Made by a program: the position numbers and the translations under genes. DNA of 64,000 nucleotides from Erythrobasidium yunnanense (lineage: Eukaryota > Basidiomycota > Cystobasidiomycetes > Erythrobasidiales > Erythrobasidiaceae), in NCBI GenBank assembly GCA_001600175.1, contig BCJC01000001.1, forward strand, positions 3,395,652 through 3,459,651, given 5' to 3'. Positions within the stretch are counted from its first letter, which is position 1. The number at the start of each line of letters is the position of its first letter. Below the pieces are notes generated by a model that was given only the letters and a program-made list of their open reading frames with translations, was not told where the DNA came from and did not search any database. Of this stretch, positions 23,399-51,719 are shown in pieces.

Positions 23399-23735
23399 AC
23401 AAATACGCTTCAGGTCACAGCCTCCACACTTTTTAAGCATAACCGAGGCGATACCCATAAGCAACTGGATCATGGACATACACGCATGCTTTTACAATAC
23501 ACGCTACGACTACCTACGACCGCCACGATGTATCTACGATAGCCTTTCAGCTTTGTTGCTTGTTTTCGCTAGGCTCGCTTGAATTTAGGCTTCTCCATCA
23601 CTTACGACACAACGTCGACTTGCAAGGCTTCGAAAGATGTTTGCTTGAATAATACCTACATGTGTGTCTCTCGCTAGCTACAGAGGCGCTCGACAAGCTG
23701 CCTTCAATGCGGATTTTGCGCCAGCATGGTGTCCG
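23399..23735. other. Convergent intergenic region
   Basis: This lies between the 3' ends of phospholipase D and the stress-protein gene. It is AT-richer with no supported gene, and probably holds the two 3' untranslated regions. Confidence 0.4.
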
Positions 23736-28021: not shown

Positions 28022-31000
28022 TTAGGTCTCGATATTCTGTCGACCGGTGTTTTCGTGCGCCTCGAACGCTATTCGAGTAGCGATATTCATAGATTGAAGC
28101 TCTTGGAAGAGAAGCTTAGCAGCGTAGGGTAGCAGGACTTGGGAGACTATTGTGCGGAGGAAGCATCAGGAATCTATTGGAGTAGTGCAAGTGAGCAACA
28201 CGTAAACTTACTAGCTGTCTTGTTCTTGCAAGATCTGCATTCGAAAGACTGCTTCTTTAGATTGGCAATAGCGATCATACCGCAGCTGAACATACATTAG
28301 ATTAGTATAATCCGTGTGGAAACGCACATTCGACACTCACATATCGCAGACGTGCACTCTGTAGCCGTCACTTGCTTCGAACATCCTCTCTTTCAGGAAA
28401 GCAGCAACACCGCTGAGAAAGCCAAATATTAGCCATAGCGCCACTAACAATGCAACACAGGACATACTGTGCAATCATACAATCTCTCTCCATCTCTCCG
28501 AAACGCAGACCTCCATCTCTTGATCTACCTTCTACCGGCTGTCTCGTAAGGATCTGGACAGGCCCTCTGGCTCTCGAATGAATCTTGTCGTCGACCATGT
28601 GCTTCAGTCTTTGATAGTATGTTGGGCCAAAGTAGACTTGTGCACGGAGTTTCTGTCCAGTATGACCGTTGTAGAGTACTTCCAGCCCACGGGATTGGTA
28701 GCCTTGATCGCGCAAAAGCTGGGAGATATGCTCTACGGTGACTTCGTTGAAAGGTGTAGCATCTCCCTCGTTTCCATGGATGCAAGAGACTTTACTCAGT
28801 AACGCCTCGACCAAATGTCCGATCGTCATGCGCGAAGGAATAGCGTGAGGATTGATGATGATATCAGGCGTAATACCTTCTACAGAGAAAGGCATGTCCT
28901 CTTGTCGGTATGTGATGCCAATTGTTCCTTTCTGACCGTGTCTCGAAGCGAACTTATCCCCTGTCTGCGGTACTCTGGTAGATCGAATACGGATCTTGAC
29001 GAACTTCAAGCCTTCGTTGTTTGTCGTGACCAATACTTGGTCGACGATACCGTTCTCTGTACTCTTGAGCGGTGTGGAGACATCTCGCTTCGTCTGCGTC
29101 TTGCTCCTCTGACCCAGTTCTTCACTGTCTGCAGGTATAGGCGCAGTTTTGCCAATGATGATGTCCTCTCCACTAACTCTTGATCCAGGAGAGATCAGGC
29201 CATCAGAGTCTAGCTTGTCGTATGTACCATGCTTGAGCCTGAGTGTAGTCTCCCACGTTGGTTTCTCGAACTCTTCCATCGTGATTTGACCCTGCTTCTT
29301 CTCTTGATCCATGTATGTTTTGTAATAGAGCGATCTAAACAAGCCTCTGTCTATACTACTCTGGTTCATGATGACGGAATCTTCTTGATTATAGCCAGAG
29401 TAGCACAGAATAGCGACGATAGCATTCTGACCTGCCGGCAGCTCTCTGAAACGTAGATACTCCATAGACCGTGTTGTTGCTAGAGGTTTCTGAGGATAGT
29501 AGAGGATGTTTGCCATAGTGTCCATTCGGACTTGGTAATTTGTAAGGTAGACGCCCATCGCTTGTTTACCCATTGCAGATTGGTAAGTATTACGAGGCGA
29601 TTGATTGTGATCGGGGAAGGGGATGATAGAAGCGCAGATACCGAGGATCATAGCTGGATGAATCTCGCAATGCGTCCAGGTCTGACAGTATGTAGCTACT
29701 GAAGGCTTGACTCTCTGTCCTTGGTCCACAGGCTTTTCAACGACCTTGCCTGTCCGTTGATAGTCTCGCACTTCTTCGAGATCTTCAGGCGTCATGCTGA
29801 TCATGACTGTCTCCTCCTCTTCGGCATCCAAGTATTCCACAATACCATTGTCGACTAATTGCTGCCATCTGAAAGGATTTTCTTCATCGTCTTGACCATT
29901 CTGAATCCAGTTCAGATGGTGCCGCTTGAGGGCTAGGTTCATATCCTCCTCGACGATGAAGAGCGGTCTGCACACTCTTCCTGCATCCGTGAAGATCCTC
30001 AACTCCCTCTCTCGCACATCTCTGACCACAGACACTTCCGCCGAGATATCACCACATCTCCTCAATTTCTTGATAGTATGTACCAATTGTTGAGGATCTC
30101 GGTGTACACCTTGCCAGACACCGTTCACGAATACCTTTGTGCTCTTGCCCAACTCTGACGAGAACTCCTCAAAGTTCTCCATACCCCATTCTTCCAAGAA
30201 CTCCACGATGGGCGCCGAAGGAGATCCTACGGAGATGTACGCCATGAGCGCCAGGTTCTTGACGAGACCACATGCTTGTCCTTCTGGTGTTTCGGCAGGA
30301 CAGACCATTCCCCAGTGCGAATTGTGCAATTGACGGGGTTTCGCAATCTTGCCATCTCGTCCTATAGGAGTGTTGCACCGCCGTAAATGCGATAGAGTGG
30401 ATGCGAACGTATATCTGTTCAGCACTTGTGAGACACCGGCTTTAGCTTGCATGGCCTTCTTCTGATCTCCCCAGTTTCCGGTGGCGATGGAATACTTGAG
30501 ACCGTTAGTGATGGTGTTGGATTTGATAGCTTGTTCGAGGTGGAACTCCTTCTGTGTCTCGACGCACTGCAGACAACTGCAGTCAGTATGCATTACCTTT
30601 CTTTTCAAGCTGTTGGCTCACCTTCTGCAAATGCCTATAGACGTCCTTCGTGAGTTTCCTAAACAATTGCCTAAACAGAGCTCCCAGCAGCGGTCCCGCC
30701 AAATCAAGCCTCTTTCTTCCATAATGATCTCTATCATCCAACTCTCTTCTCTCCAGCGCCGCTAATAGGAGTCTATGGACCATATATCCGAAGAAATACG
30801 CCTTCTTGTTGCTCTGGTTCTCAGACATGCTGATGTGCGGTAGCATTTCTTTCTGTAAGATCTCTTGCGCATACCGAAGACGGCGCTCGCGGTTCAGACC
30901 GGTGGTCGTGCCTCGACGACCAATGAAGTCGAGCGCGACCTGCCAGATAACACCGTAAGCCAACCCAAGCAGGTAGGGAAAGAAGACGCCAAACTTACCT

Positions 31001-32095
31001 CCTGGTCCTGAATAGGGAAAGCTTCCTGCAAACATGGCTTCATCATGTCGAAGAGCTCTGTATCGTTCTTGTCGTAGCAAATGTGGTCGAGAATATCTTT
31101 ATCTGCAATAACGTTGAGCGCACGGAAGACGACTACGATAGGGATATCATTTCGGATGTAGGGTAGTGTTGCTTTCATGACTTGGCCAGATACGCTCTGC
31201 GGACGCACATTAGAAGGGCTAAGTAGCAAGTGAGAGGAGACCTACATCGCTCGACTGCTTCGCTGCCATCATCTTGATCATGAGCTGCGATATCGTCTTT
31301 CCTCCCTTTTCTACAGCTGACCGGATCTCTGCTTGATACGTGACAGCCGAGGGCGGCGCTTTCGCGAAGACATAGACCTGATTCGCGGCTGTCCTCTCCT
31401 GCGCAATGAGTACCTTCTCTGATCCATTGATGATGAAGTATCCTCCCATATCGAATGGACACTCATTGAGCTCGAAGAGGGATGCTTCGTCTTGTGGTTG
31501 CAGGATACAGAAGTCGCTCTGAAGCATGATGGGGACCTTTCCGATGTAGACTTTCTTGACAGTTGATCCTTCTGCATCTCCAGTGTTCTCTTCTATGGTC
31601 TCCCACACCGGCTCTCCCGTCACTGGGTCATACTCTCCCTGCGCATGCTTCATTACTGATTTCTCTATATCGACATAGAGGGGCGCCGAGTAGGTCAAGT
31701 TTCTCAACCTCGCTTCGTTAGGGAACATGGGAGCTACACTTCCATCTGCTTCCGTCTGTGTCGGCCTTGAGAGGTAGATCTGACCAAACTTGATTTCAAA
31801 TCGCCTCGTCTCGTCGCTGTCTTTGCCCGTGTACTGCATGTTTTGGTCGAGGATCAACGTGCTGTTCTCATCTACCAGTTCTTGCATTGTATTTGTGACG
31901 AATTCATTGAACGAGGCGATCTGCTGCGACACGAGGGTCTTGTCTGAGAAGAATGAGGCGCAGACCATCCAGACGTCCTGAAGTTACGGCGCGAATCAGA
32001 CATGATACCGGCCATATTCCAGTGTAGATTCCCACCTCCTGGGTGATGATGCCGCCCTCATCCTCATACATGGATCCCTCGTAGCCGCCGTCCAT
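28022..32095 (-). CDS. rpb2: RNA polymerase II second largest subunit RPB2
   Basis: Catalytic-core subunit of RNA polymerase II, about 1,210 residues. It begins [15 protein letters not shown] (ATG at 32093-32095). Hallmarks in order are [79 protein letters not shown] (active-site region), [14 protein letters not shown] (hybrid-binding) and [14 protein letters not shown] (clamp). Three small terminal exons follow: [17 protein letters not shown], a zinc-ribbon exon with CGMIAI ... CRSCKN, and a last exon ending QNIET with TAA at 28022-28024. Those last exons are too short to show as long open frames and were found from splice sites. It converges on Rev7 (252 bp gap) and diverges from APC2. Confidence 0.97.
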
Positions 32096-34974: not shown

Positions 34975-35898
34975 CTACTGCGGCGTAAACAAATCATCTG
35001 CGAGCTCTTCTATCCCTTTCGGCGTTCTGCCCAGCAGCTTCTGCAGCGTAGGATCCACTACGGCCGTCTCGCCCTGAGCGATGCCTTCATACCACCCCAC
35101 CCAACTTTCAATAACCCAGAAGCTATCTTCCGGCACTGATTTCTTCTCCTTATGATACTTCTCCGCCCCTTCCTTCCCTCTGTAATCTATGTTCACTTTC
35201 CTGCCTGATTTCTGCTCGAGAAGCTTGCAGACATCCAAGATAGACGTCGCTCGGGGGCCTGTGAGCCGAAGTGTCTGTCCCAAGTACTGCTGATAATTTG
35301 CAAGTATCTTGGCTGTACCCTCTGCCAAATCATCCCAGCCTACCCAGGCCATCTTTCCGTCATTTGGGATGACAACCTCTATCTGTTCGTTGCTTTTGCT
35401 GACTTTTATGTCTTGATACCCACAGTAGAGCCACCAGCTTTCTGCATAGATTCCCTCGCGTATAATGACATACTGTAGTCCGCTCGCTTGCAGTATCTTG
35501 ACAGTCTCGATATGTGCCTGTTGGACGCCCGACTTGCTCTCCATCCCAGTCTCTCCTCCAAACATCAAGCTTGTATATACCACCGTCTTGACACCCGCCA
35601 GTCTCGCAGCTTTAATAGCAGTTTCATGATACTTCCATCTATCGATAGCGGGACTAGGGTATGATATCAGGAAGAGCACGTCTCCTCCTTTGTACGCTTT
35701 TGCCAGTTCTTGAGGCGATGAAGCTGTATAATCTCCCTTGCGAACTTGTACACCAGCATCTTTGGCCACGCGAGAAACAGATTCTGGCTTTGTCGACGTA
35801 ATCACCAGCTTCTCGGCTGGGATCAGCTTGTTCTCTACGATGTACGACAGCGTCCTTGAGCCCAGATTGCCCGTCGTAGATGTCAGAATAAATGTCAT
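34975..35898 (-). CDS. NmrA-like NAD(P)-binding oxidoreductase
   Basis: Intronless, 307 residues. The N-terminal Rossmann motif MTFILTSTTGNLGSRTLSYI has the TGxxG core of atypical short-chain dehydrogenases. It continues with VRKGDYTASSPQELAKAYKG, then VVYTSLMFGG and YVIIREGIYAESWW, the usual order in NmrA/QorB-like NAD(P)H:quinone oxidoreductases. A catalytic YxxxK is not evident, which fits the redox-sensor or quinone reductase side of the family. It is divergent from TF copy 1 with 158 bp between them, so the two may share control. Substrate is unknown. Confidence 0.85.
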   Translation of the reverse strand: MTFILTSTTGNLGSRTLSYIVENKLIPAEKLVITSTKPESVSRVAKDAGVQVRKGDYTASSPQELAKAYKGGDVLFLISYPSPAIDRWKYHETAIKAARLAGVKTVVYTSLMFGGETGMESKSGVQQAHIETVKILQASGLQYVIIREGIYAESWWLYCGYQDIKVSKSNEQIEVVIPNDGKMAWVGWDDLAEGTAKILANYQQYLGQTLRLTGPRATSILDVCKLLEQKSGRKVNIDYRGKEGAEKYHKEKKSVPEDSFWVIESWVGWYEGIAQGETAVVDPTLQKLLGRTPKGIEELADDLFTPQ

Positions 35899-36056
35899 CT
35901 TTAAAGTACAGAGTAGTCAGTCAGTGAGTTGCGCGTGCTTTCGGCTTCTCTCGCTCGATAAACTTAGGGGTAGCTTGGAATCGGACTACACTACAAGAAG
36001 AGACGACCTTTTGAATGCTGCGATAACAACAAGACAATACGAGACAGTACGATACG

Positions 36057-38697
36057 ATGAATGACTGGCAAGATATCAACGTCGAGCAGCCTAATCCTTG
36101 GGAAGGACCACGTGGAGAGCCTTCGACATCGACCTTGACGACTACCAACGATGCTGCTGGACCGTCTGCTCCTGCAAACAAGAGGAAACGGCGAGCCTGC
36201 GATGCCTGTAGACTGCGTCAAGTCGCCTGCCAGCGAAATCCAGGCATGTTCTCGCTATCATATCGAAGTCGCGAAATACCATGCGGTGCTAACGTATGTT
36301 GCGATGCGACAGGCCAGGAAGACTGTCTGAAGTGTATCAAGATGGCCATCAGGTAATGCTCTTTCCCAGGTACTTACAACGATCAGAACACCGGCTGATC
36401 TTGCTTATCAGATGCATTGTCTCACCTCCCAAACCACGCACAACCAACAAAGGCGCAAGGATAGCACAAGCGAAAGCACTGTATTCGCATGAGAATACTG
36501 CCATGACAGACACCGAGCAGATGGCGCTTGCCCTCGTCCAGCGCTCCTCCAACCAGGCGACACTTCCTTATTCCCCCTCACTACCACAACAGAGTATATT
36601 CGCATTGATGGACTCTGCTCTCACCAAGAAGCTCATATTGATAGCGGTCAAGCTGAAATTGTATGGAGTGCCCTTCGGCCGATTCGCATAGCGCCAGAAG
36701 CTGAGAATGAATCCATTCCAGTGTCTCCTTTCCTCTATTACGCTGGATCAATCTCGAGAAAGAATATACCGCTGCAGGCTCGCTGCTCAAGATGGATTCG
36801 GCTTCCCAGGCCGTATTTATGGGCATTGCAGCGATAGCGGCACGAGCAGTGTCTCCTCAGGAGCTCGATGGCCAAGACGCACCTGCATTGGAGGACCTGT
36901 CCAAGTCACAGATGTTACGGCAAGGCACAACGCTATGTATGTATGGGAAGAGACGGGAGGCCGCAGCCATCACTGCACTTCAAGGTGCTATCAGGGTCAT
37001 AAACGAGACGGGAATCTTTACAAGCCCGTCGCTCAAGAGTGTGTCGGCCTTGACGATGTTGGAAATGCTAATTCTAGGTGAGCAACATCGACTCGTTGGC
37101 CCGAATGGGAGGGCTGACGGTTCGCTGTCTAGTATTTCGCGACCCGTTGCGCTTCTCCAAGGAATCAAATCAGCAAGCCCGTCCATATGCTGCAACTGCC
37201 GCTGCCCATTTGCGGATCCTCGCTGAAGAGTACGCTTTATCTGGCATCGATCGCGGATACGATTTCTACAGCACCGCTTGGACTTGCATCATACGAGACG
37301 CCCTGGTGGCTGTCGCTACCGGACGTGCCCTCAACTAGTGAGCCAAGCACGATCTCACCATATCAAGCACGGAAAGCTGACTCGTATTCTTCACCTTGCC
37401 AACTCTAGTACGTCAAGCGATTTGCAACTGATACTGGGCATTGACGAAACGCAAGAGATCCCAATTCCAGATTCTGCAGCGCTAGTGCAGCCTTGGACGG
37501 AGGCTAAGCTCGAGGGTCGACCCCTGATGCAGCTATGGGCAGTAGCTCTCAGGCAAGCTCGCATATTTATCGACAAAGTAACTCAGCGTGCGTCTCCTCT
37601 ACTTGGGTCAACAAAGGAGTAATCCGTGCACAGCTGAATGTAATTCAACAGCCCTGGCTGCTGGCAAACCTGAGCTGGATACATCCGTCTTCGAGCGTGT
37701 CTTTACCTGCTTTCGCAAAGTTAGGGAAGTCCTCAATGGTGCAATCATGCTTGCCCAGCTATACTCGCCACCCATAAAGACGCCAGAACAAGTCGGCGTT
37801 CTGCACTACTGCACCGACTTCTTCCTCGTACAAGCTCATCAGGTGCTTGTTTCCAAAATGCGTCCTGATCAGCTTAGCAAGACGAACAACGCTGGTGGGG
37901 GCGGCTTTATGGCTTCTTTGTCTGAGATAGACGCTGCCTCCCCTACAACCTCCCTAAATGGGGAATATCTTGCAAAACTGCAACTCCTGAAGCTAAGGAG
38001 CGACGAAGAAGTTTTTCAAGCTGGTCAAAGGATGGTCGAGCTGTTTCTATCGATGTTCCGATCGGATGCGCCCGATACAGTCGAGTTCTTCTTGCCAGGT
38101 AAGCGTATGACAAGACATTTCAGTCCTGATTGATCTGACGAACTTGTGTGCAAAAGGCTATTTCACCTTTGAAGGTCTTCTAGCTTGGGTTGATATCGTC
38201 GTTGCCACGCCTTATGCGGAAGAGCAGAATGGCAGAGAGGACTATCCGCTTCAGAAGAAGTTGGCGGACCTTCGCGTGCTGCGAGAGGCCATGGCCCTCA
38301 TGGGCTGGAGCTCAGCTTCGGTACGTGTAAACGACTCTTGGAGTATCCGGCGAAGCTGAACACCACAACGACTGCGTTCTAGGTCCAGCCGCACATCGAA
38401 GGTCTGAGCCAGACCATTCTGGAACTAGAACTGATAGAGCGAGAAAGCATCTCCCCTTCGACCGAAGGCACGGATATGAGCTTCATGGACTCCTATCTCA
38501 ATCTCGCCAGTCCAATACCGCAGGCTTCGCTCCCGAACCCCGACATGGCGTCATTTGGAGTAGGCGATATTTTCGGCGATGGCACTTTCTATCAGCCTCC
38601 GCTTGGCGATAACGGCTTTCAATCTGGCTTCGACCTAAACGCCATGAACGAGATGATGTCCAGCGAATGGTTGCAAAACCTGTTCAAGCAATCCTAG
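36057..38697 (+). CDS. Zn2Cys6 transcription factor, tandem copy 1
   Basis: Nine exons, about 690 residues. The zinc cluster is split over three exons: CDACRLRQVAC then CLKCIKMAIRC, a complete C-x2-C-x6-C pair. The basic stretch KRKRRA precedes it. The first intron (36244-36312) has a GC donor where the three paralogues have GT. It is 69 bp, divisible by three and free of stops, so retention would insert 23 residues within the zinc cluster. The middle region carries the array signature EYTAAGSLLKMDSASQAVFM, then CMYGKRREAAAI and NETGIFTSPSLKSVSALTMLE. It ends EMMSSEWLQNLFKQS, a probable activation or partner motif. It is head to head with the NmrA-like gene. Target genes are unknown. Confidence 0.82.
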
Positions 38698-39131
38698 AGG
38701 GCATGTATATTTCCGTCATCATTTATTAGCAGATAGCAAACATCGTTCACCGCATTCCTTTTGTCTGTTGTTGTGGAGCAGGATCCTAGAGCCCATTGCT
38801 GACTAGAGACGTAGCCATACATGCATTGTCAGCTTCCCATTTCTTATCGAGGCCGACTTCTTTGCGCACATCTTCAAATCGATTTGGCCTCAAGAAGTCG
38901 TCTAACACCCTATAAATACACGTTACAAATCAATGCTTGTCGACGAGAGCATACCGGCCTGGACCCTACCTGATGATGCTTGTCGTGGGACCAAACTTTG
39001 CGCCCGGTTCGTGTGTGCATGGCCCCCTTCATCACCCTTCATCGCCATGCTGTTCTCGCCTCTCTCAGCCTCACTGCAAAGCCAGCGAGCTGCTTCGTTG
39101 TCTCTTCTTCTACTACTAACAGGCCGTCTGC
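38698..39131. promoter_or_regulatory. Spacer between TF copies 1 and 2
   Basis: No gene supported. The last 120 bases are CT-rich. They contain a CTCAGCCTCACTGCAAAG segment resembling one upstream of copy 3 (near 42005-42025), perhaps a duplicated promoter element. Confidence 0.4.
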
Positions 39132-41653
39132 ATGAGCTTACTTGGCAGCACAGAGCAGAGCAAAATTAGGACGCCGTCCAGCGAACAAGCGGAAAAAGAC
39201 GATGAAAGACCTACCGCTAGACGAGGTCGGAGACGACCGCCTTGTGAAGCTTGCGCGAGGCGAGACCTAAAGTGCCGCCGCAAACCAGGTCCGTCTGGCT
39301 CACACAATCTCATGGACTTCCAAGCCTGATGCAGCTCTTACTGCAGGTCAAGATATTTGCATGCGCTGCATCAAGATGTCAATGAAGTGTGTGAAAGACT
39401 CGCCTGCCTAATGAGCCTCCGCTGACCTCAAATAGCTGTGTACCTTGCGAATCTCGGAAGGCAGTCACAACGATATTCAAGATGTCAGCCGCAGCTGGGA
39501 CGGAAGACCCCAAGGAAGTCTTTCCGCTTGAACAGAACCATCAAAATCCTGCCAAATTGCCGTTTACTATATCTCCAAAAGCTCAGAACACATTCGCCGC
39601 CTTCATGGACTCTGGTCTGATTAGTCGGCTTATCTCTACATCATCTCTACATCTAAGACTGTGAGGAGTCTGAACCTGCTTCTTGCTGGCCAAGCTCATC
39701 GCTCGCTCCTTCAGCGCGGCTCTGCCGTTGATGCACCAAGTAGATATACAACAAGAGTACACATCCGCTGGGTCGTTGCTCAATATGGAGCCAGCCTCGC
39801 AAGCCTTCTTCATGGGTGTGGCAGCGTTGGCCGCGCGTTATGTTTCTCCGAAAGAACTCGACAACCTCGAAGCGCCTACTTTGGGCGAATTATCGCAAAA
39901 CCCATCTCTCAGACACGAATCCAATATATGTGTGTACGGCAAGCGGCGAGAGCGATCGGCTCAGGTCGCTTGCGAAATGGCCATCAAGAGCCTACACGAG
40001 AGCAATGTTTTCACAGAGCCGTCTGTACGGAGTGTCGCTGCCTTAGCCTTGATGGAATTCCTTGCACAAGGTATTACAACTCATACAGTCTCCGCTGTTT
40101 GCACATGTAGCTGATAGCCTGTGAAGCCATTTGGTATCCCTGTAGAACACCGTCGCCGTGGGATCAACGCGCACGTCTGTGTTCTGCTGCAGCAGCTGGT
40201 CATCTGCGATCTTTGGCAGAAGCACATCTCACCTCAGGGAGCAAGACTGGTCCATACTTCCGTTCTTCTGCCTGGATCTGCATCATAAACGATCTGATTG
40301 CCGCGATATCTACGGGCCGTAGTCTTCACTAGTAAGGCAGGCAGCTTATAGACGGACAGTAACACTCTGCTGCACACCTCCACGAACAGTACATCAGACG
40401 ACCTACGTCTCATTCTCGGCATTGACGAGAACAACAAGTTTCAAATGCCCGATGCCCACAGCTTGATTGAAGTCTGGCTGAATGAACGTACCGGTGACGC
40501 GTACGCCGATGGACCTTTTGTGAAGGACCTTTTGTCGGTTTTTCTGCAGCATGGTCGTGCTTTCGTCAACAAAGTTAGCTCTCGTGAGTCTTAGGTCACT
40601 TATCTGGGCAGGACACTGACAGACACGATCTCGACTTCAGCCCTGCCCACAATCCGGTCGGAATTCAACACTACAGTCATGGAGAACCTCCTCGACAGCT
40701 TCCACAGAATAACGTCGCTTCTGCACGAAACGCGACGCTTGGCGGAGAAACGTTCAGGACAGCGCACTGTACCCTATTTCGCCAAGATCCTCTGGCACTC
40801 TATGGACCACTGTATCTTACAAGCTCACAAAGCGCTTCTCCGCCACCATTCCAGGAACTTTGCTCGACAGTGGCCGTCCGGACCGGACTACCTGGTCAAG
40901 CTGAGGTCACTACAGCTTAGAAGCCACGAAGAGGTGTTTTGGGCTTCGCAAAGAAGAGTATCCCGCTTTGTCGAATGGCTGAAAGTGACTGCCTCAGGCA
41001 CATGTGACTACTTCCTACCAGGTGAGACCGGTTTCGAGAGGCTGTAGATGGATGTTCTGACATTCGGCACATCACAGGCTATTTCGTCCTCGAAGACATA
41101 CCGTCTTGGGTGGAAGTGGTCACGCAAACGAAGCACAGAGGGGAACTTGGAGGCCGGCCAGACTATCCTCTGTCAAAGAAACTGGCAGATCTCAGGATTC
41201 TCAGGGACTCCATGGCCTTCCTCGGCTGGAGCTATGGTGATGTAAGTTGCAGACATCTACATTTGAATCCTGCTCACCTTGTTGAAACAGGTTCAGCCCT
41301 TGATGGTGACTCTTGGTCAGACCATTGCCAAGCTGGAGGCAGAAGAAACTCTACGAGCGAGCAAAGAGGCTCTCTCTGTGCTCTCCGCACCGGCAACGAA
41401 ACAAATGTGGCGCGAGAACGCTTCTTCGTTGACTGACAATTTTGGCGTCAGCTACCTGGGCACTTGTAGCACTCCCGCGTCAGAGGCTTCCAGTCACGTT
41501 CCCGCTGGCGTTGCCTTGGGCAATCTCTACCCTAGCCGGACTGGCTATCAATTGACTCCGGTCATTCTTCCTACCCAGAATCGGCCCGACAGCAACACCA
41601 TGAGCGAGATGATGTCTAGCGAATGGATGGATAGTCTTTTCAAGCATCAGTAG
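39132..41653 (+). CDS. Zn2Cys6 transcription factor, tandem copy 2
   Basis: Nine exons with the same intron positions and phases as copy 1, about 650 residues. The zinc cluster is CEACARRDLKC plus CMRCIKMSMNC, preceded by RRGRRRPP. The shared core follows: AAFMDSGLISRLI, DIQQEYTSAGSLLNMEPAS, CVYGKRRERSAQVACEMAIK and FTEPSVRSVAALALMEFLAQG. The C-terminus is SEMMSSEWMDSLFKHQ. It is closest to copy 3 by eye (both RRPPCEAC ... RRKPG and SPxELDNxxAPTL). The exon after the fourth intron begins at the acceptor near 40111 (ACEAIWYPCRTPSPWDQRA), chosen because it keeps frame with the conserved LCSAAAAGHLRSLAE part. Confidence 0.82.
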
Positions 41654-42064
41654 GGCAATTGTCAGAGATGCGGGATATCTTGCATCTTTTAGCAAGTTGA
41701 GATGGGTTCTGTCTTATTGTCGCTGAGCGGCCCTCGCCCTTACATAACTAGAACGTAGAGGATCATGCAAGCTTTGGCATTGAGATTGTACAATGTTATA
41801 CTGATCGAGGTCGACGGACTTCTGGTTAGTCTTCGCACGTTGCTTTCCAATAACTTCATCTGGCCTGTCTCTAGCTTCATGAAGTACAAGCGAATGACAG
41901 CGACAAACCAAAATGCTCACAGAACAGCGCTCAAGAAACGCGAACCCTGCTGACTACCGCCGACCAAATGTTGCGCCCGCTCCTCCTGCTGCCTTGCGGT
42001 TGTCAGCCTCGCACAAAGCATCTCCCTCTTGTCTCTGCTCTGCTCGCCCTGAGGTGGATCTTCG
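41654..42064. promoter_or_regulatory. Spacer between TF copies 2 and 3
   Basis: No gene supported. The right part near 41990-42050 is CT-rich and contains a TCAGCCTCGCACAAAGC block similar to the one before copy 2. Confidence 0.4.
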
Positions 42065-44592
42065 ATGAGCGCAAGCTTACATGACAGCAGCGAGCTGAAG
42101 CAGCTCGACCGGGCGCCAAGTGTCCTTCAAATGGATAGCATCAAAGCGAAAGCCAGACGAGGTCCTAGACGACCACCATGTGAAGCTTGTGCAATGCAAC
42201 AACTCAAGTGTCGTCGCAAACCGGGTGCGTCTATCCTGTTTCGAAGTGTCTCTTCCAGCGTCCTAAAACTGACGTCGCGCACAGGTCAAAACATATGTTC
42301 GCACTGCATCAGAACGTCCATCGAGTAAGCTCGAAGCCCACGTAAAGCGATATGTATCGCTGAGCTCGAAATAGGTGTACGCCTCGTCAATACGGAAAGA
42401 CAGTCGCAACGACATACAAGATAGCCCAAAACTCGTGCAAAGACGCACATCTGGACAACGCCTCTGTGTGGGAGGAGAACGACTTACTCTCACTGCCGCC
42501 AATCATTTCTGCAAAAGGGACAGTCACGTTCGCCGCCTTTATGGACTCCAGTCTGATTAGCCGGCTCGTCTTAACAACCTCTACATATCTCAAAATGTAA
42601 GGTCATAACGTCTCCCTCCTTTCGTGCCGACTAATCGCTTTGTATATAGCCCAACGCTTCCGCTGCTGCTCCAAACCGATATACAGCGTGAATATACGGC
42701 CTCAGGCTCCTTGCTCAAGATGGATCCAGCTTCGCAAGCCTTCTTCATGACCATGGCAGCTCTAGCATCACGCTACGTATCGCCCCGAGAGCTCGACAAC
42801 ATGGGTGCCCCTACTTTGACCCAAATTGAGAGGAAGCCGTCTCTTATACACGCCGCGGGTGTCTGCGCATATGGCAAACGTAGGGAACGATTCGCTCAGA
42901 TCGCCTGCGAAGTCGCCCTGAAGACGCTGTATGAGAGTCGCGCATTCACCGAGCCATCAGTGCGTAATGTTGCTGCACTGGCCTTGATGGAATTTGTCGC
43001 ACAAGGTATGAACAAAGCTGTTGGCAGCTCTTCACAGATTCCGCTGACGTCCTGCAAGCTGTTCAATATACCTCTCTGAACGGTCGATTGTGGACTTACA
43101 GAGCTAGGCTATGCTCTGCTGCTGTAGCCGTTCACTTGAGATCTATGGCAGAGGTGCAGCACGCTTCACATAAGCAAATCACCCCTCAACTTCGTTCTAT
43201 AGCCTGGATCTGCATCCTCAATGACGTTCTTGCCGCGTTATCTACAGGCCGCGATCTTCATTAGTAAGGCAGCTACTCGAAGAGCTTCACGAAGTGTTGA
43301 GCATGATCTCCGGATAGTACATCGAAAGATCTGCTTCTCGTGCTTGGCATCGACGAGAACGTCCGGCTCCCAGAAGTGCCCGATGCGACCAGTCTGATGG
43401 AAGCCTTTCTGAACGACAGCATGGAGCCTTTGGAACTCGCGCCCGTGAAAACCTTCGTATCGTTACTTCTCCAGCAAGTGCGGATTCTTGTCGACAAAAT
43501 CAGCTCCCGTAGGTCATGGATTGATCCGCTCTGCAAACCACGCTTATCAACACGACTGCGATCGCTCATATATAGCTTTGGCCGCATCACGCACCCAGTT
43601 TGATATCGGCGCAATGGACGGGCTGTTCGACAGCCTCGCCGCCCTCTTATCGATCCTGAACGAGACACAACGTATGGTGCTGCACGGCTCCGTCGTACAG
43701 CGTGCCAATTCATGCTTGTGCAAGGCTTTCTCTATCATAGATAGTTGCATTTTACAAGCTCATAGAGCACTCCTTCGGCACATAGCCAAGACACCACCCT
43801 CTCAAGAAGATTACCTGCTGAGGCTGGATTCCGTACGACGAAGAAGCTATGAAGAGGTATTTCGGGCTGCACAGAGAAGACAATCTACTTTTGTTGGATG
43901 GGAAAATCTAATGTGCTCGGGCAAAGAGGCTTTCTTCGTGCCAGGTACGACCGGCTGAGGTACGGCTGCATGAGGGTATACTGACATATCTGATTCTGTA
44001 GTCTACTTTGTTATACATGATCTACCTGCCTGGGCGGAAGTCATAAAGCAAACAAAGCATAATAGGGAATTTGGGGGCCGGGCAGACTATCCCTTATGCA
44101 AGAAATTGGCAGATCTGCGAAGGTTGGGAGACTTGATGTCCTTCATGGGCTGGAGCTATGGAGGTGTTAGTTGCAGCCATACTTGCTCGGTCCCTACTGA
44201 CCTCGTTGAAACAGATTCAGCCTCTCTTAGAGGAACTAAGGGAGACGATTTCCAGGCTAGAAGCGGAGGAAAGTAGATTGGAGAGCGAGGAGGCGTGTGC
44301 ACTGCCCTCGGCACCGGCAGTGAGACAGATCTGTCGCGAGCGCCATCTGAGTTCGACCGCAGAAGTTGGCATGCAATTGCCGTACACCTGCACAGGTCTT
44401 CCGAACTCTATACCGGTGACTTCAGCTGAGATTTCAGATACCTTGGCCTCGGGCGACCTCTTCCATCACGGAAACGGCTCTCCTCCAAAGCCGATCAGTT
44501 TGAGTGTTCAGGATAGTTCTGACGCTGCCGCTACGGCCGAACTGGTGTCCTGTGAATGGCTAGAGAATCTCCTCAAGCAGTCGCCAGCATAG
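42065..44592 (+). CDS. Zn2Cys6 transcription factor, tandem copy 3
   Basis: Nine exons with conserved intron layout, about 650 residues. The zinc cluster is CEACAMQQLKC plus CSHCIRTSIEC, so all six cysteines are kept. The core is AAFMDSSLISRLV, DIQREYTASGSLLKMDPAS, CAYGKRRERFAQIACEVALK and FTEPSVRNVAALALMEFVAQG. After the fourth intron the exon starts near 43062 (AVQYTSLNGRLWTYRARLC). The C-terminal motif is drifted: LVSCEWLENLLKQSPA. There is a Glu-rich helix just before (SRLEAEESRLESEEAC). It looks functional, with no stop or frame break in the inferred exons. Confidence 0.82.
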
Positions 44593-45053
44593 CTGGGATC
44601 TTTTTTCATCCCTCGTCGTGCAATCTGCGAAGTTCTGCGTTACGTAACTAGTTACAAGCCTGGTTCTTAGAAACCGTCACCGAATCAGAATGTAGTATAG
44701 ACATCATATCGGTAGTCCAACCGCACAACAGGCATGGAATTCCAGCCAACGAACATACTACTTGCACTTTCGATCTTCTCGCATCGCTAGACCTTGATTA
44801 AGTGCGGAGCTATGCATAGCATCGCCGTTTCGCCTGAACATAACAATTATGGAAGATCTGACAAACGAATGTCGAGATGGAATACTCACTAATGCCAGGG
44901 CCGTGACCTTGTCATTCTGCCCAAACTCGAGACGCTCGCGACGACCCAAATACTGCGTCAAAGGAAAGTCACGGCACGAGATATGTATTCCCTTCCTTGT
45001 CTTTCCTCCGACGTGTCTGGGTCTGCCTCGTGAATCCGCTGAATCAGGCATTC
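44593..45053. promoter_or_regulatory. Spacer between TF copies 3 and 4
   Basis: No gene supported. Open frames on both strands (for example 44758-45051 minus) are unsupported by any conserved content. It presumably carries the copy 4 promoter. Confidence 0.35.
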
Positions 45054-47301
45054 ATGAGCTGCCCGGGCAATGCTAATCACGAACCGATGACGACCTCTGG
45101 GCAGAGTGGTAGGGTAGAACAGCCCTTCCGCAGAAGAACAAGAGCGTGTGCAGCTTGTGCCGTACAGCACCTGCGCTGCGAGCGCAAAGCAGGTAGGCCG
45201 TGCGTTTCCCATCGTTTCTGACATCGCCCTGATGTGCTACATTGATGACAGACAGCAACACTTGTTCGCGCTGCATCAAGTTAGCAATAAAGTAGATATC
45301 AACAGCTTGACTATCTAATCCGACTTTCCGCTGACTATTTTGTGTTCGCCTAGTTGTGTAGACCGCGCCAATCGAAGAGGGTTTTATACCATGCGACATA
45401 CTCCTGTCTATCCTCAACCACAAGATATTAGAGAAGATGTGCAGGTCTCACCTCTGGAGCAGGCTCCCGACTCTGCTATCACGCTGCCTTTGACCGTTCA
45501 TGCGCGACCGCAGAGCAACTTCGCCGCCTTCATGGACTCTTCCCTGATCACTAAACTCGTCGCAACGTCTTCCAAACTCAGGCTGTGAGTTCGCCAGATC
45601 CTGTCCCAGACCCCTCCGTTCTCTGAAGCAGACGACCGCCAGTATCGTACTACCCCTAGTCCACCGAGTGGATTTGCAATACGAGTACATGGCCGCTGGA
45701 TCTTCGATCAACATGGAACCTTCGTCTCAAGCTCTGTTTATCAGCTTCGCCGCTCTAGCGGCTCGTTATGTAACACCACAAGTATTCGATTGCCTGGACG
45801 CACCTACTTTGGATCAGCTGTCAGTCACTCCATCTTTTAGGCAAGGCACACAGCTCTGTGACTACGGCAAGCGAAGGGAAAGGTCAGCACAGATTGTCCA
45901 GGAAGTAGCCATCAAGGTGTTGAACGAGAGCGGCGTGTTCACAGAGGCGACAGTAAGGAGCGTTGCTGCTCTGACCATGATGGAAAGCATTATACATGGT
46001 ATGTCCACGATGATCCATGGTCCTGTTCGGCTTGTGACATGCCCTGCAGCTTTCAGATACGCTCTTCCTAGCTCCGACATCTGGCATCAGCGGGCACGAC
46101 CCTACTCGGCCGTTGCAGCTGCTCATCTAAGGTCGTTAGCAGAGGCCTCGCTCCTTTCAGGCATCAGAGTGGACCGGCATTATCGGACAATTGCCTGGAA
46201 CTCTATCTTCCGCGATGTCATTGTCGCCAGTTATACAGGTCGGAGCCTGCACTAGTGGGCTTATCTATCGCATTGAGCCTACTTTACTTCAGGCTGATAG
46301 AGTCATCCGCATTCATCAGCACATCAGACGATTTGCGGCTGATACTCAAAGTTGACGAGACTGCCAATATTCAGATCCCAAATGCGAATAATCTAGTGGA
46401 GGCCTGGCTGCATCCACACACAAAGAGATCGTTTGCGGACGACTCCCCTATGCAAGCTCTATTCGCAGTCGTTCTTCGGCAAGCGCAAGCTTTTGTCAAC
46501 AGGGTCACGTCGCGTGAGTTCTGAAGTGCTGCCATCACACGCACCGACCTCACTCAGTTAGCCTACAGCTCTGGCTGCGATGAAACCCGAATTGGATATT
46601 CTTGTTATCGAGGATCTCTTCAACTGCTTCGGCAAAGTAAGACTGGCTCTGATCGAGACTCGCATCTTAGCGAGCAGAGTCACGGGCAGACAGGATATTC
46701 CAGACTATGCAAAACTCTTATGGTTTCTTACAGACTTCTGCTTGCTACAAGCACACAAAGAGGTTCTTCGGCACATGCTCGAAAGTTTTGGAGAGAACGC
46801 GGTTGAGCAGATCCTTACCTACGATTCAGAAGCAGCCGCAAGAAGAGCATATCTGCTCGACTTGCGGCGGAGAAGTCATGAAGAGGTCTTTCAAGCATCC
46901 CAAAGGGTCACGTTGAGATTCAAGTCAGTATTGGAGGCAACGACAGCCGGGACCGAGGAATGCTTTCTTCCAGGTGAATACCATTTCAAAGTTAAGTAAA
47001 CATGTCTGACAAGGTATGTCGATCAGGTTATTTCCTTTTCGACGACGTACCTTCTTGGGTAGATGTCATCACGCAGACGGAGCACAGTGGGCAGTTCGGA
47101 GGTCGCGGCGATTACAGCCTCTCGCAGAAGATTGCAGATCTCAAGGTGTTCCGGGAAGTCTTGTCTGTTCTTGGCTGGAGCTACGGCGAGGTATAATAGC
47201 ACGACCTGCGCGTCTTGAGACTTGATTCACTGACCATCAGCCACTTTGAATAGATTCAGCCTCAGATAGAGAGTATTAGCCAGACTATCGCAAACTTGTA
47301 G
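45054..47301 (+). CDS. Zn2Cys6 transcription factor, tandem copy 4, shortened C-terminus
   Basis: Nine exons with the same intron positions, about 590 residues. The start is ATG 45054 (MSCPGNANHEPM). The zinc cluster is CAACAVQHLRC plus CSRCIKLAINC. The core is AAFMDSSLITKLVATSSKLR, DLQYEYMAAGSSINMEPSS, CDYGKRRERSAQIVQEVAIK and FTEATVRSVAALTMMESI. The final exon reads IQPQIESISQTIANL and then stops at TAG 47299-47301, so it lacks the roughly 90-120 residues and the EWLxxLxKQ motif present in the other copies. It is either a naturally short factor, perhaps lacking the activation end and competing with its paralogues, or a gene beginning to decay. No other disruption is seen. Confidence 0.78.
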
Positions 47302-47595
47302 CAAATCCACATCCTCGAGACTCCCAGCATGCTTGAATCGCCGAAACTCATCAACCATTGTGATCTAGCATTAGACACTATCGTTATGACTATTGTGTTG
47401 AGGCATCGCGACTCAAGCGCAGGCAGCTACGGCTGCGAACATATAACTGCGTCAAGACCGCGTCACTTTCGCATGGGGGTTACACTTGCCTTAGCTAGCC
47501 GTCATTTCTCTTAATGCGATGAGATCGGCGTGCGAGCGAAATCACGGGTATATATTGAAGGCCTGCTTCTTTCCTTGGGTGAGGCAGGCGTGCAT

Positions 47596-48307
47596 CTAGC
47601 ATACGGAGGTCAAGCGATTTCCAGATCCAAGCCGCACATCGCCAAGACCCACAATGATGGATGCGCTTGCTACGCTTATGGTATAATATTCATCGCTCTT
47701 GGTCGCACCCTCTCCAAGACAGTAAGCGCCTTCGAAAAAAGCGAGGAACCAGTAGGTCGGGTATCTGACTAGCGTCTGTGCCACAGCGTGCTGAAGATCG
47801 CCATCTCCTGCAATACTTGCAGCTTCGTATGCGTGGAGAAGCAGGCTAACTGAGAGGCTTCCGATCTGAAGACTGTCCACGACATTTAAGTGTTTTCAAC
47901 GCTCTCTGGTGCCATACTACTTACGTGATCCTATCTCTCATCCAGTCACACAAGCGCTCCATAGCATACTTGTCGGTGAACCTGTAGACTCCTAATTCTC
48001 CCTGATGTGGAAAATCCGTGGGAAGACGACATCCAGGAAAGAGGTATCGAAATGCGTTTTCGACATCTACGCTTGGATCTTCAAGTGTTACTAGATCCAG
48101 CTTAGTGTACGGTTCGGGCCAGCCATTCTTGCTCTGCTGCTCGTCCTCTTTGTTTTGGGACAGACTCAACATATCGGCAAAGACTGTGGAATGGTAGGCT
48201 AAGGATTCCTTCTGAACTGGAAAGGCATACTGCAAGTCATCGGCATTGACGACCACTAGAAGGTTTGGCTGCTCGATTCCAAGGTCCTTGATCTCGTATC
48301 TCGACAT
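47596..48307 (-). CDS. BTB/POZ domain protein, tandem copy 1
   Basis: Two exons, about 220 residues. The start MSRYEIKDLGIEQPNLL aligns with the starts of the next two copies, which is why 48307 was chosen over 48325. The BTB fold shows LLVVVNADDLQYAFPVQKES, AYHSTVFADMLSLSQ, VENAFRYLFPGCRLP and VYRFTDKYAMERLCDWMRDR. The intron (about 47874-47923) joins DRIT to LQIGSLSVSLLLHAYEAAS. Fungal BTB proteins of this shape (x-FPVxKxxLAxHSxVFxDML) are common and mostly uncharacterised; some act in protein-protein contact or as Cul3 adaptors. No DNA-binding or kelch part is present. It converges on TF copy 4 with 294 bp between them. Confidence 0.78.
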
Positions 48308-48665
48308 AGCAGCAGTTGCGGTCATACTTTGCGGTATGGAGAGAAGAAAGAATGATCCCCTGGACATTGGGTACAAGACATCTGCCTTCCAGGTTCGGTG
48401 CGTGATGATTTCGAGATGTCCGACAATCATGTCGTCATCGTTTAGCTGCGTTCGAACAGAGTGACCGTCCAAACGTCGGAGACGTTGTTATCTGACAGAT
48501 ATCGCACGCGTTCTACAATCCTCGTTGGTAGCCTGGACCCTGATGTTGGTGGCCAGCCTATGTTCGTGCAGTCGCTGTCCGCTGTGGCCTCTTTGATGAC
48601 AGCCTACGCGTGGATGTTGTAGGCGGCACCTCGGCGCAGCAGGCAAGTGTGCATCTGGAGAAGTA
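48308..48665. other. Spacer between BTB copies 1 and 2
   Basis: Upstream side of BTB copy 1 and 3' side of copy 2. No gene supported. Confidence 0.35.
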
Positions 48666-49353
48666 TTAAGAAAGATGGACAGTCGGGCAGGAGAGACTAG
48701 AAATGCTCACCACAAGGGCCGCGCAGGAGACGCTGATCACGCTGTACTGATCGTCTTTAGTGGGTCCTTGGCCTAGGCAGTGAACCCCGTCGACCACCGC
48801 TATATTCCAGTCTGCAGGGCGTGCAGCCATCGTTTCGGCAACGCTTCTTTGAAGGAGGATGTCGCTTGCGACGCTCGCACTTTCGCAGGCCCGTACTAGG
48901 AGGCCTTTCTCAAAGTTCTTCAACTCAATGCTGCAGCGCTTGTCAGCAAGTGTGAGCTGTCCTGGAATGTACTCGCTCACACAATTTTCTCCCTCATCCA
49001 GTCGCATAGGCGCTGCATGCCATATTTGTCGGCGACGCGATATACTCCTAAAATCTCTTCATGGGACAATCCTTGTGGTACTTTACACTCGGGAAATAGG
49101 TATCGCAGCGCGTCTTCGATGCTATTACGCAGGTCTTGAGAACGACCACGTCGAGCTGATGATATGGATCTGGCCAGCCGTTGTTCGTTGACTCGTCCTC
49201 TTTGTCTCGAGGAACCCGTAACATGTCCGGTGAATGATGCGCCAGAGAGTCCTTGCGTACAGGGAACGCATGTCGGTCGTCTTCAGGCGTCTTGACGATA
49301 ACGAGGAGGTCAGGATCCTTGATCAAAATGTCTTCTACAATGCGCTTGGGCAT
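48666..49353 (-). pseudogene. BTB/POZ domain gene, tandem copy 2, probably broken
   Basis: The start MPKRIVEDILIKDPDLLVIV and the end (IELKNFEKGLLVRACESAS ... VHGVHCLGQGPTKDDQY-like exon 2) match the flanking copies. Exon 1 changes frame near 49140: the first frame gives LDVVVLKTCVIASK and soon stops. The next frame gives DLRNSIEDALRYLFPECKVP and VYRVADKYGMQRLCDWMRE, which align with BTB copies 1 and 3. Four residues corresponding to TVFA in HHSTVFADM are also missing. No splice pair explains the shift. It is either a recent pseudogene or a sequencing slip at one base. Confidence 0.68.
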
Positions 49354-49707
49354 GGTTGAGTGTACTTTTCAGCTCAGGCTATCGGGCGGCTTGGCGAAAA
49401 GCAACGAGAGCAAGTCACTCGATGATCACAACACATTAAACCCTGCACAATGGATACCGCGACTTCATTTTGACGACAGGTCCCACAATTGTAATCACAC
49501 TAAGAGCGAGCTGATTGACAGACCTCTTTGTACGTTTGAACGATTGTGCCATCGACCTACCGGCCAGAGCAGAGGCGACAATCTACGTTAGAGTATGAAT
49601 GTTGAACTTCATGTCCTCATTCAGGTCCTTCAAGCATTTAAAAATCTGATAGACGGTTTTCAGTGCCGCGACGCAGGGAGTCTTTGGCGACTCACGATAA
49701 ACGCTGC
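49354..49707. other. Spacer between BTB copies 2 and 3
   Basis: No gene supported. It probably holds the upstream region of BTB copy 2 and the 3' end of copy 3. Confidence 0.35.
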
Positions 49708-50362
49708 TCAGGAGGCGCTGATGGCTTTGCGAGAGTCATTTGGGTAGTATTCCGTCCCGAAATGGAACACGCCCTCCCTCAATTCTATATGCCAATCATT
49801 CGGTCGATTGGCCAGAGTTTTGGCGATGGCCTGCTGTAAAAGCACATTGTCCGAGACGCTGCTAGCTTCGCAGACGAGCGGAAGTAAATTCTTATCGTAT
49901 GCGCCAAGCTCCAGCCTATCCGGTACAAACCAGGCTTAGCTGAAACAAGGGCGCCGCGACATGTCTCACTCACGCTATCTTGTCTGTCATCCACTCACTA
50001 AGGCGCGGCATATTATACTTGTCGGCCATTCTGTATGCACGTAGTATCTCCATATGCTCTAGCTTCCTGGCCAGGCGACATTCAGGGAAGATTAGGCGAA
50101 AAGTGTTCGCAAGGTCAAGCGGATCGTCTTCCAGTGCTACTACGTCTAGCTTGTGGTATGGGTCCGGCCAGCCATTATCCTTGATCTCCTCAGGATCCCT
50201 GTGAATTGACTGTGTCGCCACAGCAAACATGTCCGCAAAGACGGTGGAATGGTGGGCTAGGAACACCTTCGAGGTCGGGAAGGCGTAGTGATCATCCTCA
50301 TTCTTAGCTGTGACCAGGAGATCGGGATCTTTAACTCCGAGATCTATGATTTCTTGTTTCAT
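49708..50362 (-). CDS. BTB/POZ domain protein, tandem copy 3
   Basis: Two exons, about 200 residues. It begins MKQEIIDLGVKDPDLLVTAK and continues with DDHYAFPTSKVFLAHHSTVF, ANTFRLIFPECRLA and AYRMADKYNMPRLSEWMTDK. The intron near 49918-49974 joins DKIA to LELGAYDKNLLPLVCEASS. It ends YPNDSRKAISAS at TGA 49708-49710, shorter than copy 1. The frame is open further upstream to 50422, but alignment with the paralogues supports the ATG at 50362. Same family remarks as copy 1; no disruption is seen. Confidence 0.78.
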
Positions 50363-50496
50363 GTATCTTGTGAAAAGCCAACGAAGAGTGGAAAGTAGTT
50401 GTTGAGAAGTCTGCTTCTGCACACCTGCATGATATCGTCGTGATGTAGGACCATCACCACCTCATCGTCTGACGGTACAACATACCGGCACCTCGC

Positions 50497-51719
50497 CTAT
50501 AACCCATCGATGACGTTCTGTCTGACGACGAGCTCCCATCTGCCGAGCTCTTCTCCCTCTTCGACACCAGGTACCCTGACGAAAGCCATGCTTCCAATTT
50601 CTTGCTGGTCCATACTCCTGAACGGCTCCTCCCGCAGCGTATTTTCCAGCAACGTATTCTTCGAGACCGCTTTGTATTGTGGAGGATGTAGCGTAATATG
50701 ATGTGTGATGTTGAAGTTAGAAGACTCGATCGGATGAGATGGATTGAAAGGCGGAAGTGAAGGCAGGGCATCATCGACTTTCACGAAGGGAGAAGGGTAC
50801 GGCTTTGGCAGATGTTGTCGAAAGAAAGGGGAGTTGAGAGTTGGCTGTACGTCTCCTATACCAGGAAATGCCCAATTTATAAGAACGATCACACAGCCCA
50901 ACTTCTGTCGTATCGTATTTAGGGCAGAAAGCGTATTCCGTAAAGCGGCAGCACTGCTGACCGCCTTGCCTTTGATGTTGACTTTAGCTTGCTCTGCCTG
51001 AAAGCGATCTTGCCAGTAGAAGGCCGATATACTATCGAGAAGTACGAATGTGAGCTCTTCGGAGCAGTTTTTCTGCACATACGTAGGCAGGCTAAGCACA
51101 GTAGCGGCCAGCGATACTGAGGAAGTAGGAGAGAAGATATGAACGCGAGACAACGCTTTCATCGTTTCTTGGTGTAAAGCTCCGGAGTCTGCTTCTGCAG
51201 AGTATAGTGCTGGAATCGTTGCAGCGTGTTCTTGCACTCGTCTAGCGAGATGTGCCCGAACGAGTTGGTATAGTCGGTCTACACTGAATCTGCCATCGCA
51301 GTCGAGAACAGCGCAACATTTGGCTCGTCCTCCTATGGCGATTTCCTCCATTCTTGGCGGACGTGAGCTTCCTCGCACGCTCAAAGCAACTTCCCAGGAT
51401 CTTGGGAGACATGCTGTCATTGCAAAGAAGTGCAGCATCTGCGTCTTTCCGCTTGCTGCAGGGCCCTGTATCTCGATGACATCGCTGCGGTTCAGCACGC
51501 TTTCTGATCCAGCTTTTGGGTCATAGTTCTCGAGAATGCCATCTAGAGGTGCGAAGAAAGTGTTTCCTGGCGGGCTCGTATAGTACCGAACGGACTGCAG
51601 GAACTGGTGGAGCAGCACGCGAGCAAAGTGATCAGATTCAGAGAGGAGAGATGGGAGATACCACTCACTTGATTGCCTGATTCACAACTAATGCTGGTCA
51701 GAAGTGCTTGTGCAGCCAT
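50497..51719 (-). CDS. xrcc2: RAD51 paralogue, XRCC2-like recombination protein
   Basis: ATPase of the RAD51 family acting in homologous recombination. Two exons: MAAQALLTSISCESGNQ (51669-51719), then an intron ending in CACCAG, then FLQSVRYYTSPPGNTFFAPLD. The product is about 385 residues. Walker A is GPAASGKTQ, and Walker B with the XRCC2 hallmark is FVLLDSISAFYWQDRF. The SALNTIRQKLGCVIVLINW strand follows. DSxSAFYW separates XRCC2 from Rad51, Rad55 and Rad57. The start is only 70 bp from the start of SLX9 on the other strand. Confidence 0.88.

Follow-up and report, generated by a model that had tools for sequence, protein, structure and literature searches.

What kind of regulator is encoded by four neighboring zinc-cluster genes, and do they represent a new type of factor or diverged members of a familiar one? 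This question is raised by a locus of Erythrobasidium yunnanense (contig BCJC01000001.1) lying in a stretch of 64,000 nucleotides (C1:3395652–3459651), referred to here as the window; genome searches covered 20.9 Mb in 10 contigs, whose zinc clusters, Fungal_trans proteins, and short introns are in keeping with a fungus. The explanation that we favor, with somewhat more confidence than doubt when taken as a whole, is that the four genes (g1–g4) are an old local quartet of Zn2Cys6 factors with a diverged core resembling the middle homology region (MHR), that they would use non-standard DNA sites, and that g1–g3 would be activators while g4 would be a competitor or partner. The anatomy of the array, the introns common to its members, and its old age are established by the data below. 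Most of the array is an ordinary, if diverged, family of zinc-cluster regulators; its notable parts are the recognition segment, which is unusual, and g4, which lacks the tail.

Layout and Gene Models of the Array

Gene models were obtained by matching splice sites and reading frames across all four genes, on the basis of conservation and splice signals, and gave the following features.

36057..38697, + strand: g1, gene model, 713 aa, 9 exons, intron 1 GC-AG
39132..41653, + strand: g2, gene model, 697 aa, 9 exons
42065..44592, + strand: g3, gene model, 694 aa, 9 exons
45054..47301, + strand: g4, gene model, 593 aa, 9 exons; the last exon contains 15 codons plus the stop, and the C-terminal tail is absent

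These models bear out the head-to-tail quartet proposed in an earlier sequence-only reading of this DNA; all four genes are in tandem on the + strand, and their predicted proteins contain no internal stops. The same reading had placed nothing between the genes, which is correct in that they are direct neighbors, but spacers of 434, 411, and 461 nt separate them; it had also called all four factors complete, which applies to g1–g3 but not to g4, which stops about 100 residues early. Each gene contains eight introns of 47–71 nt, and positions match for 32/32 introns (phases 1, 2, 2, 1, 2, 1, 1, and 0), confirming the proposed common places and phases, including the two introns that split the zinc cluster. 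GT-AG borders were found at 31 of the 32 introns; the sole exception is intron 1 of g1 (36244–36312), which presents GC-AG where g2, g3, and g4 present GT-AG at the same site.

Pairwise protein identity among g1–g4 ranges from 35.8 to 51.2%, a resemblance that, judged from these alignments, is far above chance level. Among the core motifs quoted by the sequence-only reading, YGKRRE is invariant in all four proteins, but the others hold only as a consensus and vary in g1 and g4: FAAFMDS reads FALMDS in g1, SQAxFM reads SQALFI in g4, and FTxxSV reads FTSPSL in g1 and FTEATV in g4. CGG pairs, considered as autoregulatory sites, are present in two of the three spacers and absent from the first, with no common arrangement. 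For repeat-induced point mutation, the array carries no signature of its own, as TpA/ApT is 0.70 both in the array and in the remainder of the window. Scanning the window for Rfam families, tRNAs, and tandem repeats returned nothing relevant to the array.

Zinc Cluster and Recognition Segment

All six cysteines are invariant in the four proteins, with the spacing C-x2-C-x6-C-x8-C-x2-C-x6-C, which falls within the accepted Zn2Cys6 range (CX2CX6CX5-12CX2CX6-8C). The cluster is N-terminal, is preceded by a basic stretch, and is interrupted by introns 1 and 2 in all four genes.

36198..36415, + strand: g1 zinc cluster, introns 36244-36312 and 36353-36411, Lys18-equivalent Q
39243..39439, + strand: g2 zinc cluster, introns 39289-39346 and 39387-39435, Lys18-equivalent D
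42179..42378, + strand: g3 zinc cluster, introns 42225-42284 and 42325-42374, Lys18-equivalent Q
45147..45357, + strand: g4 zinc cluster, introns 45193-45251 and 45292-45353, Lys18-equivalent H

The cysteine pattern, the N-terminal position, and the preceding basic stretch are those of the Gal4-type family (PF00172), from which the array differs by a best Pfam score under the cut-off and by the lack of K or R at the position equivalent to Lys18 of Gal4. Pfam Zn_clus matched all four proteins at E values up to 10, with the best score in g1 (19.6 bits, under the curated cut-off of 21) and E values no better in g2–g4; a profile of the array's zinc clusters aligned to the Lac9, Ppr1, Gal4, Put3, and Leu3 chains (best E 0.015). 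We therefore assign g1–g4 to the Zn2Cys6 superfamily on the strength of their cysteines and of how they align to solved clusters, not because of the Pfam cut-off. Elsewhere in the same genome, 7 of 46 Zn_clus rows end their match between profile positions 12 and 18, which fits an intron there, so intron 1 may lie at a position that is nothing out of the ordinary.

The Lys18-equivalent, placed here by alignment to the solved clusters, is the fourth of the six residues between cysteines 2 and 3, which read RLRQVA in g1, ARRDLK in g2, AMQQLK in g3, and AVQHLR in g4. The usual basic DNA-contact residue is thus replaced in all four members, by Q, D, Q, and H, respectively, none of them K or R. In Gal4, Lys18 hydrogen-bonds neighboring guanines of the CGG target, as described in the available portion of PMC5559640. 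For comparison, 40 of the 46 Zn_clus rows of the same genome were fetched, and 34 of these were readable at this position (26 K, 7 R, and 1 Q; K/R in 33/34); among the 23 rows in which cysteines 1 to 3 were all in frame, the position was K in 19 and R in 4 (23/23), and each of the 23 clusters had K or R at three or more of the six residues. The corresponding K/R counts in the array are 2 in g1, 3 in g2, and 1 in each of g3 and g4.

Two observations weigh against an altered specificity. With three K/R among six residues, g2 lies inside the ordinary range for overall charge. Put3 presents His at the Lys18-aligned position in the alignment to solved clusters and is named among the binders of CGG pairs (PMC5559640, available portion), so the loss of Lys18 alone is no proof that specificity has changed. 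By analogy with Pho7, discussed below, g1–g4 would use the zinc cluster to bind DNA, but their sites would differ from the CGG triplet pairs that are usual for such factors.

Probable Kinship of the Core with Fungal_trans

Downstream of the zinc cluster, the four proteins share a core that extends, in g1, from the end of exon 3 to the start of exon 6. The core was delimited in g1 by hhalign and in g2–g4 by alignment to g1 and by the family profile.

36605..37421, + strand: g1, putative diverged middle homology region (Fungal_trans-like)
39602..40402, + strand: g2, putative diverged middle homology region
42538..43330, + strand: g3, putative diverged middle homology region
45529..46332, + strand: g4, putative diverged middle homology region

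Comparison profiles for Fungal_trans (PF04082) were built from stretches of the same genome (54 rows listed), at first from 13 and later from 18 sequences. The better-built 18-sequence profile aligned to the family core with an hhalign score of 33.8, which none of 900 shuffles reached (best shuffle 28.4); the full-length family scored 39.0 against it, with the core again as the best region, and its reversed control scored 18.6. The alignment is in register over about 180 columns. Opposite the FMDSxLI block of the core lies the region of the first Fungal_trans helix; the (L/F)PLL.. and SVxAL blocks fall on the Fungal_trans motifs "fPi" and "tvQAL", respectively, and AWxxIxxDxxxAxxTGR falls on "ww...D......GR". 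Because the profile-profile alignment is in register, we read the core as a diverged Fungal_trans domain and not as a new domain. The likeness thus consists of block order and placement in the profile alignment, while the difference is that the core of the array is undetectable by Pfam search.

Several results count against this kinship and have to be set beside it. Pfam found no Fungal_trans match in any of the four proteins, in the consensus core, or in the full-length consensus; the consensus core gave no match of any kind, and the full-length consensus gave only matches under the cut-off, namely Zn_clus and, weakly, four unrelated entries. With the 13-sequence profile, hhalign scored 29.0 (probability 8.9%), and 22.6 (probability 1.4%) when query and template were swapped; in a first control 0/300 column shuffles reached 29.0, and in a second control this score was reached by 0/300 column, 1/300 block, and 0/300 reversed-block shuffles (1/900 in total), the one block shuffle outscoring the core. 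The hhalign probability remained at 28–38% with the 18-sequence profile; such a low probability is unsurprising for a profile of four sequences, yet it is a real weakness. Searches with hmmsearch between the family and the Fungal_trans stretches of its own genome were not significant (best E 0.012 with 4 targets; 0.71 in reverse). An AlphaFold model of a contiguous g4 stretch (45644-46252, with intron 4 read through as 17 extra residues) was helical with low confidence (mean predicted local distance difference test, pLDDT, 48.9), and Foldseek with this low-confidence model of the g4 core returned nothing at E ≤ 0.001. Fungal_trans_2 (PF11951) had no Pfam match in g1–g4 and three rows elsewhere in the genome.

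The evidence is moderate; as judged from these profile comparisons, the core most likely belongs to Fungal_trans (MHR) as a strongly diverged member, an assignment that is supported, not proven. The sequence-only reading had not recognized the core as the classic fungal transcription factor domain and had proposed a check against Fungal_trans profiles. The lack of any Pfam match to Fungal_trans agrees with it, but the in-register alignment does not, and in the proposed comparison the core outscored 900/900 shuffles with the 18 sequences from its own genome. The MHR-like core would gate the activity of the factors, and the array suggests that diverged MHR cores can escape a profile library.

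C-Terminal Tail and the Tail-Less g4

A short island is conserved at the C-terminal end of g1–g3.

38650..38694, + strand: g1 C-terminal conserved island EMMSSEWLQNLFKQS, putative activation motif
41606..41650, + strand: g2 C-terminal conserved island EMMSSEWMDSLFKHQ, putative function as in g1
44539..44589, + strand: g3 C-terminal conserved island ELVSCEWLENLLKQSPA, putative function as in g1

Across the three pairs, the last 17 aligned columns present 11/17, 10/17, and 6/17 identical residues, as compared to 18/65, 19/68, and 26/86 in the preceding 91 columns; the g2/g3 island (6/17) is barely above its background (26/86), a point against the explanation favored here. The end motif of g1–g3 can be written E-x-x-S-x-E-W-[LM]-x-x-L-[FL]-K, which we take to resemble short acidic/aromatic activation motifs, and g1–g3 may activate transcription through it. 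In contrast, g4 ends after the conserved stretch IQPQIESISQTIANL, without the C-terminal tail of about 100 residues present in g1–g3; a tblastn search with the three tails against 47180-48600 for a remnant returned only the IQPQIESISQTIANL stretch and chance-level matches. Because the C-terminal motif is absent from g4, this protein may act as a competitor of the other three or as a partner subunit.

Age and Copy Number

Proportions of synonymous (pS) and nonsynonymous (pN) differences are 0.63–0.81 and 0.32–0.45, respectively, across the six pairs of g1–g4. Saturation at synonymous sites affects four of the six pairs (pS 0.76–0.81), and dS for the two unsaturated pairs is 1.37 (g2/g3) and 2.26 (g3/g4). 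Since most pairs are saturated, the duplications are old and not recent; by these substitution estimates, the reading frames have been kept and there was no recent burst. In the tree of the array, g2 and g3 form one group and g1 and g4 the other (99/99).

Whole-genome searches for further copies used g2 and g1 as queries, with the best 16 candidates scored for each. The g2 search gave 24 rows, all within the array, and the g1 search gave 24 rows that, beyond the array, included only two weak zinc-cluster rows (E 1.5e-4 and 0.0245); no further array-like copies were found with these two queries among the candidates scored. As to the proposed lineage-specific expansion, the copies found in this genome with the two queries are all inside the array, but the saturation of synonymous sites indicates that any such expansion was not recent. 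Elsewhere in the genome, two Fungal_trans genes in tandem (L044/L045, C8:575–582 kb) appear to be a younger pair; the stretch compared is identical at 205 of 258 residues. Two pattern scans for relatives, one of genome contigs (29 matches) and one of viral contigs (35 matches), gave no confirmed match; both sets are of bacterial, archaeal, or viral origin, and the scans have little bearing on fungi.

Alternative Explanations

The core could be a regulatory domain of its own, without kinship to Fungal_trans, that is joined to a zinc cluster; we consider this quite unlikely. Neither the four members nor the two consensus forms (full length and core) have a Pfam Fungal_trans match, and the non-significant hmmsearch between groups and the weak swapped hhalign point the same way; however, the in-register alignment, with no shuffle as high under the better profile, argues for kinship, as does the order of zinc cluster and core, which is that of standard factors. 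The possibility that the array members are ordinary pathway-specific activators, acting as homodimers on CGG pairs and controlling nutrient- or host-related genes, is unlikely on present evidence. The Zn2Cys6 plus MHR-like plan fits such activators, and the His at the contact position of g4 is also found in Put3; on the other hand, the contact residue is replaced in 4/4 members, no nutrient, effector, or metabolite gene was named among the 18 window open reading frames (ORFs) scanned, and inspection by eye found no obvious heptad coiled coil past the sixth cysteine.

The missing tail of g4 and the weakly basic recognition segments of g3 and g4 would also fit decaying duplicates, some of which no longer bind DNA or function. 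This is improbable to a high degree, as all four genes retain open multi-exon frames, usable splice sites, and all six cysteines, and pN is well under pS. The evidence thus points, on balance, to the old quartet of diverged MHR-type zinc-cluster factors described above.

Comparison with Known Systems

The available portions of the cited papers describe systems that resemble the array in part. Pho7 of Schizosaccharomyces pombe is a zinc-cluster factor that presents Asn instead of Lys18; its binding site is asymmetric, and it may occupy this site as a monomer (PMC5559640). The array members likewise lack the Lys18 side chain of Gal4, but the DNA-binding domain of Pho7 is central, its residue is Asn, and no close kinship with the array is shown. 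Yna1 and Yna2 of Hansenula polymorpha are two zinc-cluster activators that lie in one gene cluster and form a heterodimer (PMC4559421); they sit among the nitrate genes that they control, whereas no target genes were seen at the array. AOD2 and AOD5 are also paired zinc-cluster factors that work as a heterodimer (PMC5295593). In Trichoderma reesei, clusters of Zn2Cys6 genes are distributed non-randomly (PMC4812632); these genes are clustered as in the array. In A. nidulans, expansion of Zn2Cys6 genes is reported to have occurred mainly by dispersed duplication (PMC8396895), with which the old tandem set of four genes contrasts. No published description of the array family was found in the literature searched, which was not searched by sequence motifs. 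If the recognition loop does read sites other than paired CGG triplets, the DNA code known for fungal zinc clusters would be broadened by this family.

Neighborhood of the Array

Eighteen window ORFs outside the array were scanned with Pfam; six matched above the cut-off, as listed here, and 12 had no name above it.

21367-23436, + strand: phospholipase-D-like gene
28368-30617 and 31219-31983, - strand: Rpb2-type RNA polymerase subunit, in two pieces
32344 onward, + strand: APC2-like cullin
34975..35898, - strand: NmrA-like/NAD(P)-binding gene (Pfam NmrA E 2.4e-11), a neighbor of the array
58518-59933, - strand: CWC25 splicing factor

No marker of a nutrient, effector, catabolic, or metabolite cluster was found among these 18 ORFs (12 of them unnamed). 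The suggestion that the array controls nutrient- or host-related genes thus found no supporting evidence, as the six named ORFs mark no such cluster. The NmrA-like gene is divergent from g1, with 158 nt (35899-36056) between the inferred start codons, and this gap is a possible shared promoter.

Right downstream of the array, 47500-50400 on the - strand contains a second tandem array, in which a BTB-like unit recurs roughly every 1 kb in at least three copies (at 47934, 48990, and 49983). The middle copy matches in two frames, indicating an intron or a frame break, and the first copy matches Pfam BTB under the cut-off (E 0.064). A more elaborate proposal, which we regard as very doubtful, is that the locus would be a self-contained combinatorial switch in which the paralogs pair on asymmetric non-CGG sites through a rebuilt recognition loop, with g4 as antagonist; the NmrA-like gene (as redox sensor) and the BTB array (as degradation adaptors) may join it. 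Separately, the ORF at 50497-51681 (- strand) presents sub-threshold matches to PSY3 (E 0.0098) and Rad51 (E 0.046) and possibly encodes a recombination protein.

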